The notes under the pieces: model-generated
What the model saw: the letters and a program-made list of their open reading frames with translations, nothing else
Told to the model about the DNA's origin: nothing
Database searches by the model: none
Origin: Chloroflexota bacterium
Lineage (GTDB): Bacteria > Chloroflexota > Dehalococcoidia > UBA2979
Length of the DNA: 64,000 nucleotides
Direction of reading: 5' to 3'
NCBI GenBank assembly: GCA_947472995.1
Contig: CANJBO010000004.1
Span: 34,248-98,247, forward strand
Shown: in pieces, positions 44,700 to 61,211 of the stretch
How positions within the stretch are numbered: position 1 is the first letter of the stretch
Layout of the letters: each line of letters starts with the position of its first letter
Position numbers and translations under genes: made by a program

Positions 44700-44774
44700 G
44701 CATCGGCGGGGGCGCCCTTCACGCCTCCGCGGGTGTGTGGAACGCATCGCCGCGCCCGTCGAGCGAGCGCGCGC

Positions 44775-44842
44775 GTGGCGTTGACGCGCCAGAACGAGCG
44801 TTCTAGCGTGGCAGCAAGCGCCGCCGGCAAGCGGGCGCGCGC
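44775..44842 (+). repeat. 68-bp tandem direct repeat, unit 1 (promoter plus SOS-box-like operator)
   Basis: The unit begins GTGGCGTTGACGCGCC. It contains TTGACG (44781-44786), a 17-base spacer and TAGCGT (44804-44809). The spacer ends with GAACGAGCGTTC (44792-44803), the GAAC-N4-GTTC pattern of Gram-positive-type LexA boxes. Unit 2 follows directly with one mismatch (G to T in the -10). Confidence 0.8.
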
Positions 44843-44910
44843 GTGGCGTTGACGCGCCAGAACGAGCGTTCTAGCTTGGCAGCAAGCGCCGCCGGCAAGC
44901 GGGCGCGCGC
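44843..44910 (+). repeat. 68-bp tandem direct repeat, unit 2 (promoter plus SOS-box-like operator)
   Basis: A near-identical copy of unit 1: TTGACG 44849-44854, GAACGAGCGTTC 44860-44871, TAGCTT 44872-44877. It ends 13 bases before the polymerase ATG, and the predicted start site is about 40 bases upstream of that ATG. Confidence 0.8.
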
Positions 44911-44923
44911 GGAGGACGCTCGC

Positions 44924-46138
<1,215 letters not shown>

Positions 46139-60738: not shown

Positions 60739-61211
60739 CCGTCCTTGAGAACTGGATTCGCATCAACGCGACTCCGGCGCAAGTGTGGGGAGTACTGGCT
60801 TCTCTCGATACGCTCGACCGATACGACCCCGGTGTGACGAAATCCGAGCTGATTTCGCAGGTGCCGGCGGGACCTGGGGCAGAGCGGCGATGCGACCTTG
60901 CACCGGGCGGCTGGTTCAAGGAACGCGTGGCGGACTGGGAGCCTGCGCGGTCGCTCTCCTTCGAACTCTTCGACTGCAGTCTGCCCGTCCGCCGCCTGAA
61001 ACACAGCTATGCACTCACGCCGGACGGCGACGGCACCATTGTTCGCCAGCGAATGGAATACGAACTGAAGTTCGGCGTCCTCGGGAAGGTGATGGATGCG
61101 GTTATGGTTCGGAAGAAGTGGGACGCGGGAATCAAGGGATTCTTCGGCGGACTGAAGGGCTACGTCGAAAGTAACGAGCATCCCGCTGCGCGACCGAACC
61201 CGGGACGATGA
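60735..61211 (+). CDS. SRPBCC (START/Bet v1-like) family protein
   Basis: A 158-residue helix-grip protein: IRINATPAQVWGVLASLDTLDRYDPGVTKSELIS at the N-terminus, a central beta sheet (RSLSFELFDCSLPVRRLKHSYALTPDGDGTIVRQRMEYELKF), and the long C-terminal helix MDAVMVRKKWDAGIKGFFGGLKGYVES. Such proteins bind hydrophobic ligands. The polyketide cyclase/dehydrase-like subgroup is the nearest by pattern. It is coupled to the HxlR regulator upstream (ATGA). Confidence 0.85.
   Translation: MTVLENWIRINATPAQVWGVLASLDTLDRYDPGVTKSELISQVPAGPGAERRCDLAPGGWFKERVADWEPARSLSFELFDCSLPVRRLKHSYALTPDGDGTIVRQRMEYELKFGVLGKVMDAVMVRKKWDAGIKGFFGGLKGYVESNEHPAARPNPGR

Follow-up and report, generated by a model that had tools for sequence, protein, structure and literature searches.

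Two near-identical copies of a predicted SOS promoter-operator precede dinB in a Dehalococcoidia-like Chloroflexota genome

The window analyzed here, a stretch of 64,000 nucleotides, carries two adjacent and almost identical promoter-like units ahead of a gene for a translesion DNA polymerase, and each unit contains a palindrome of LexA-box form. The locus raises the question of whether these units are an SOS switch of the polymerase gene and, if so, what the presence of two of them would do. Judged from the sequence, the locus is probably (at a probability of about 0.82) an SOS promoter-operator of dinB that is truly duplicated. The features of this array and its gene given below lie on the forward strand.

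The distal (44776-44843) and proximal (44844-44911) units are 68 bp each and are identical at 67 of 68 positions, as the preliminary description of this DNA had it, and its coordinates are right as well. Tandem Repeats Finder reports an array at 44762-44911 with a period of 68, 2.2 copies, 97% matches and a score of 286. When the sequence was compared with itself at an offset of 68, the segment 44762-44843 was identical save at 44766 and 44808. The mismatch at 44766 (A/G) falls in the flank outside the 68-bp units and that at 44808/44876 (G/T), the fifth base of the -10 hexamer, is the sole difference between the units. The chance of such a tandem match in the window is about 1e-31 for offsets up to 500, with base composition alone considered. 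Three copies of the repeat AGCG(A/G)GCGCGCGCG, which start at 44762, 44830 and 44898, border the array. The first (AGCGAGCGCGCGCG, 44762-44775) was found by self-comparison and pattern search, and the second (44830-44843) and third (AGCGGGCGCGCGCG, 44898-44911) by self-comparison; the third adjoins the ribosome-binding site, a probable Shine-Dalgarno GGAGG at 44911-44915.

Each unit has a TTGACG, a 17-nt spacer ending in GAACGAGCGTTC and then TAGC(G/T)T, the layout that the preliminary description had proposed. In the distal unit the -35 hexamer is at 44781-44786, the predicted LexA box AGAACGAGCGTTCT at 44791-44804 (core GAACGAGCGTTC at 44792-44803) and the -10 hexamer TAGCGT, the one commonest in relatives, at 44804-44809. 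The corresponding features of the proximal unit are the TTGACG at 44849-44854, the predicted box AGAACGAGCGTTCT at 44859-44872 (core GAACGAGCGTTC at 44860-44871) and the -10 hexamer TAGCTT at 44872-44877, which is one base off the TAGCGT of relatives. The boxes were located by pattern search and by comparison with relatives, in which the TTGAC of the -35 hexamer is also conserved before dinB. Both -10 hexamers have only three of six matches to TATAAT, and a consensus promoter scan that required four of six called no promoter. GAACN4GTTC is seen three times in the window versus 0.47 expected; the third occurrence is GAACTGAAGTTC at 61062-61073, with no obvious gene directly downstream. Structure prediction for the leader RNAs of the two predicted transcripts gave no excess stability (z values of 0.79 and 0.50). 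The dinB leader of one relative, G003 (L023:1454-1530), begins with a strong hairpin (z of -2.66) that is absent from the leader in the window.

The gene downstream (44924-46138) encodes an intact dinB-type protein of 404 residues. The product matches PF00817 (IMS, 2.7e-42) and PF11799 (IMS_C, 1.5e-30) as well as DNA polymerase IV models, in agreement with the Y-family polymerase named in the preliminary description. The IMS catalytic domain with its acidic residues and the C-terminal little-finger domain are both present, and the motifs DLDTFF and GIDEAYVD are intact. Compared with known DinB (DNA polymerase IV) proteins, it has the same full-length IMS and IMS_C arrangement and the protein itself shows nothing unusual. 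Its closest homologues are 81-84% identical and come from Chloroflexi metagenome-assembled genomes, some of them labelled Dehalococcoides or Dehalococcoidia. In a viral collection neither a relative of the polymerase nor a copy of the unit core was found. An in-frame GTG at 44843, which would give an ORF of 431 residues, was set aside as a start codon, since the proximal operator would then fall in the coding region.

The genome that holds the window (G000) is a draft metagenome assembly of 1.78 Mb in 55 contigs, 72.84% complete. It encodes a single RecA (516 bits) and a single LexA, which scores 170 bits with TIGR00498, over the curated cut-off. An alignment with LexA repressors of solved structure covers the full length of this LexA; the Ala-Gly cleavage site is kept, as are the dyad residues Ser and Lys. 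GAACN4GTTC occurs at 20 sites in this genome versus 2 for a reversed-pattern control, and the longer AGAACN4GTTCT at 8 versus 0; the latter pattern is also commoner than its control across most of the family's genomes. Several of the other GAACN4GTTC sites sit within coding sequence and are probably chance occurrences. A box lies about 58 bp ahead of the predicted recA start (C19:17548), and boxes are found just upstream of ruvB (C7:23907), of the B12-dependent ribonucleotide reductase gene nrdJ (C19:24183) and of a second Y-family polymerase gene (C2:1055). Upstream of lexA there is only an imperfect box, AGAACATATGTACC, with two mismatches in ten, which is conserved in the genus. One canonical LexA together with boxes before recA and other SOS genes argues for the LexA-box identity that the preliminary description had assigned to the operator. 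The designation of the box as Gram-positive in that description holds for the box class, which is identical, and fails for the organism, which is Chloroflexota/Dehalococcoidia-like and not a classical Gram-positive. A limited search of the literature found no description of a GAAC-N4-GTTC LexA box or SOS regulon in Dehalococcoidia. The present data provide evidence, at the level of sequence, that uncultured Dehalococcoidia-like Chloroflexota have an SOS regulon of the GAAC-N4-GTTC class, with a conserved promoter layout in which the operator lies in the spacer.

LexA boxes were also noted at several other loci of the genome. At C6:64866-64910 (L010:4667-4711) two boxes 33 bp apart are flanked on one side by the gene of a small zinc-ribbon protein, which resembles the C-terminus of the B12-dependent ribonucleotide reductase (E of 1.8e-6), and on the other by the gene of an 85-residue membrane protein. 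Three relatives (L201, L202 and L203) retain the pair with a spacing of 31-35 bp when one mismatch per box is allowed, even though identity of the membrane protein within the genus is only about 44%. With its spacing of 31-35 bp, about three helical turns, this pair has a better claim than the dinB units to be a candidate two-operator design that is built in. Boxes at C7:30755 and C55:218 (L013 and L020), and in a relative (L166), precede similar acidic proteins in phage-like surroundings that include a major head protein and a DNA methyltransferase with a terminase-small-subunit-like stretch, which suggests SOS-induced prophage genes. At C7:9255 (L011:2056) and, in a different family of the class, in one genome (L167) a box is followed by a small cysteine-containing helix-turn-helix protein. 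At C8:47987 (L014:2088), AGAACGCACGTTCG lies directly ahead of a two-gene unit encoding proteins of 317 and 368 residues without Pfam matches.

Exactly one perfect core box was found before dinB in 12 relatives (4 in the genus and 8 more in the family), and in about fifteen other family members no perfect box precedes the dinB homologue. The single boxes lie 39 to 76 bp ahead of the start of the dinB match, and in 10 of the 12 relatives the box stands behind TTGA(C/T) with a spacer of 17-18 nt. The -10 hexamer is TAGCGT in five of those and varied in the rest; in G005 the box is kept and the hexamers are not, and G020 is truncated by the end of its contig. The composite pattern TTGAC-N7-GAACN4GTTCTA has matches in 17 of 40 relatives, and the reversed control gave no match at all, a count that concerns relatives only since the 7-base gap misses the units of the window itself (spacer of 17 versus 18). 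In two AT-rich relatives the composite pattern lies before recA and reads TTGACA-N18-TATTAT, which makes the assignment of the GC-rich -10 hexamers convincing: these look weak as predicted -10 elements, and conservation in the relatives backs them. As read, a LexA-type composite promoter also stands before an apparent ribosomal protein L9 gene in six relatives (L155, L156, L157, L158, L160 and L165).

Two units were seen in this genome only, and all 12 relatives that carry the box have one, which answers the one-versus-two comparison that the preliminary description had proposed. No other copy of the 68-bp unit was found in the genome, so a generic repeat element, which would recur at other places, was ruled out. 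Slippage or recombination between short AGCGNGCGCGCGCG direct repeats is the most likely origin of the doubling, and the repeats that bound the duplication fit this. From the sequence the doubling has the look of a minor change that is recent and confined to the lineage. As the distal unit retains the TAGCGT of the relatives, the proximal -10 hexamer (TAGCTT) is probably the altered one.

We infer LexA binding, promoter activity and an effect of the doubling from the sequence, and the following scheme is proposed. In each unit, AGAACGAGCGTTCT would be occupied by a LexA dimer, which would lie between the -35 and -10 hexamers and exclude RNA polymerase. Upon DNA damage, RecA-stimulated self-cleavage of LexA would open both promoters, for which transcript starts near 44816 and 44884 are predicted. 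Provided that the doubling matters at all, its effect is most likely additive, in that the two separately repressed promoters would add their outputs to give more dinB mRNA upon induction. LexA at the proximal box could also act as a roadblock to leakage from the distal promoter. Taken alone, an additive effect of the two units is close to an even bet, falling slightly short of it. The preliminary description had expected a duplicated operator to strengthen repression. That the operator is doubled stands; however, each operator lies within its own promoter, so the promoter is doubled too, and tighter repression is no more likely than a higher output upon induction.

The doubling could instead be a neutral and recent tandem duplication of a real operator, in which the proximal unit alone matters and the distal unit is silent or redundant, and we regard this as quite possible, although at odds noticeably below even. 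Among the genomes examined only this one has two units, their identity at 67 of 68 positions points to recent origin and the short GC repeats at the borders provide a mutational route. Moreover, the distance from the start of the proximal core to the ATG is 64 bp, that from the start of the box to the matched coding region in the genus relatives is 59-76 bp, and hence the proximal box would be in the ancestral position. Silence of the distal unit is not what its sequence predicts, however, given that its -35 hexamer, 17-nt spacer, box and TAGCGT hexamer are all intact. The opposite reading, in which selection favored the doubling as a change in SOS mutagenesis, with two stacked LexA-repressed promoters that give translesion polymerase expression a higher peak and a different timing, seems unlikely. 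If it were true, the damage-induced mutation rate would be higher than in relatives with one unit. The close relatives offer a natural contrast of one unit with two.

A second unit that exists only as an assembly artefact or through a mixture of strains, with one unit in the organism, is improbable. The genome is a single draft metagenome assembly of limited completeness (72.84%) in 55 contigs and the repeat is short and GC-rich, but a short read or read pair normally spans a 68-bp repeat (the array is about 150 bp), and an exact copying error would give none of the one-base differences seen between the units and between the border repeats. We consider equally doubtful a cooperative operator pair, in which two LexA dimers, separated by 68 bp, make contact or form a loop and give tighter, switch-like repression. 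Two perfect boxes are present and a pair of operators at one gene has been reported for C. difficile (PMC4234289), yet a distance of 68 bp from center to center is 6.48 helical turns, which puts the boxes on opposite faces of the DNA and too far apart for dimer contact; the conserved tandem pair elsewhere in the genome is spaced at 33 bp, about three turns. The cooperative induction put forward in the preliminary description is therefore unlikely. A generic repeat, or the palindromic site of an unrelated regulator outside the SOS response, is scarcely credible: the analysis turned up nothing in support of such a reading, the unit occurs at a single locus in the genome and the box is found at recA, ruvB and the second Y-family polymerase gene and is conserved before dinB.

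Both the regulator and the way in which it works follow the textbook, and the switch is an ordinary one of a known kind that is common to the relatives. GAAC-N4-GTTC is the LexA motif of Firmicutes and Actinobacteria such as Bacillus and Mycobacterium (PMC3323433). The core palindrome found here is identical to that of the Bacillus subtilis and Mycobacterium tuberculosis LexA boxes and likewise occurs at recA and at translesion polymerase genes. In contrast to those cases, the host is Chloroflexota/Dehalococcoidia-like, the flanks favor A...T (AGAACN4GTTCT) and the position of the box is between the -35 and -10 hexamers, so placed that its final T also serves as the first -10 base. More than one LexA operator is known for E. 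coli lexA and recN, and E. coli lexA has two boxes at short spacing that serve one promoter. In C. difficile one gene has two LexA operators (PMC4234289). The dinB locus described here shares with all of these the presence of more than one LexA box before a single gene. Unlike the arrangement at E. coli lexA, however, the whole promoter and operator are repeated here, almost exactly, at 68 bp.
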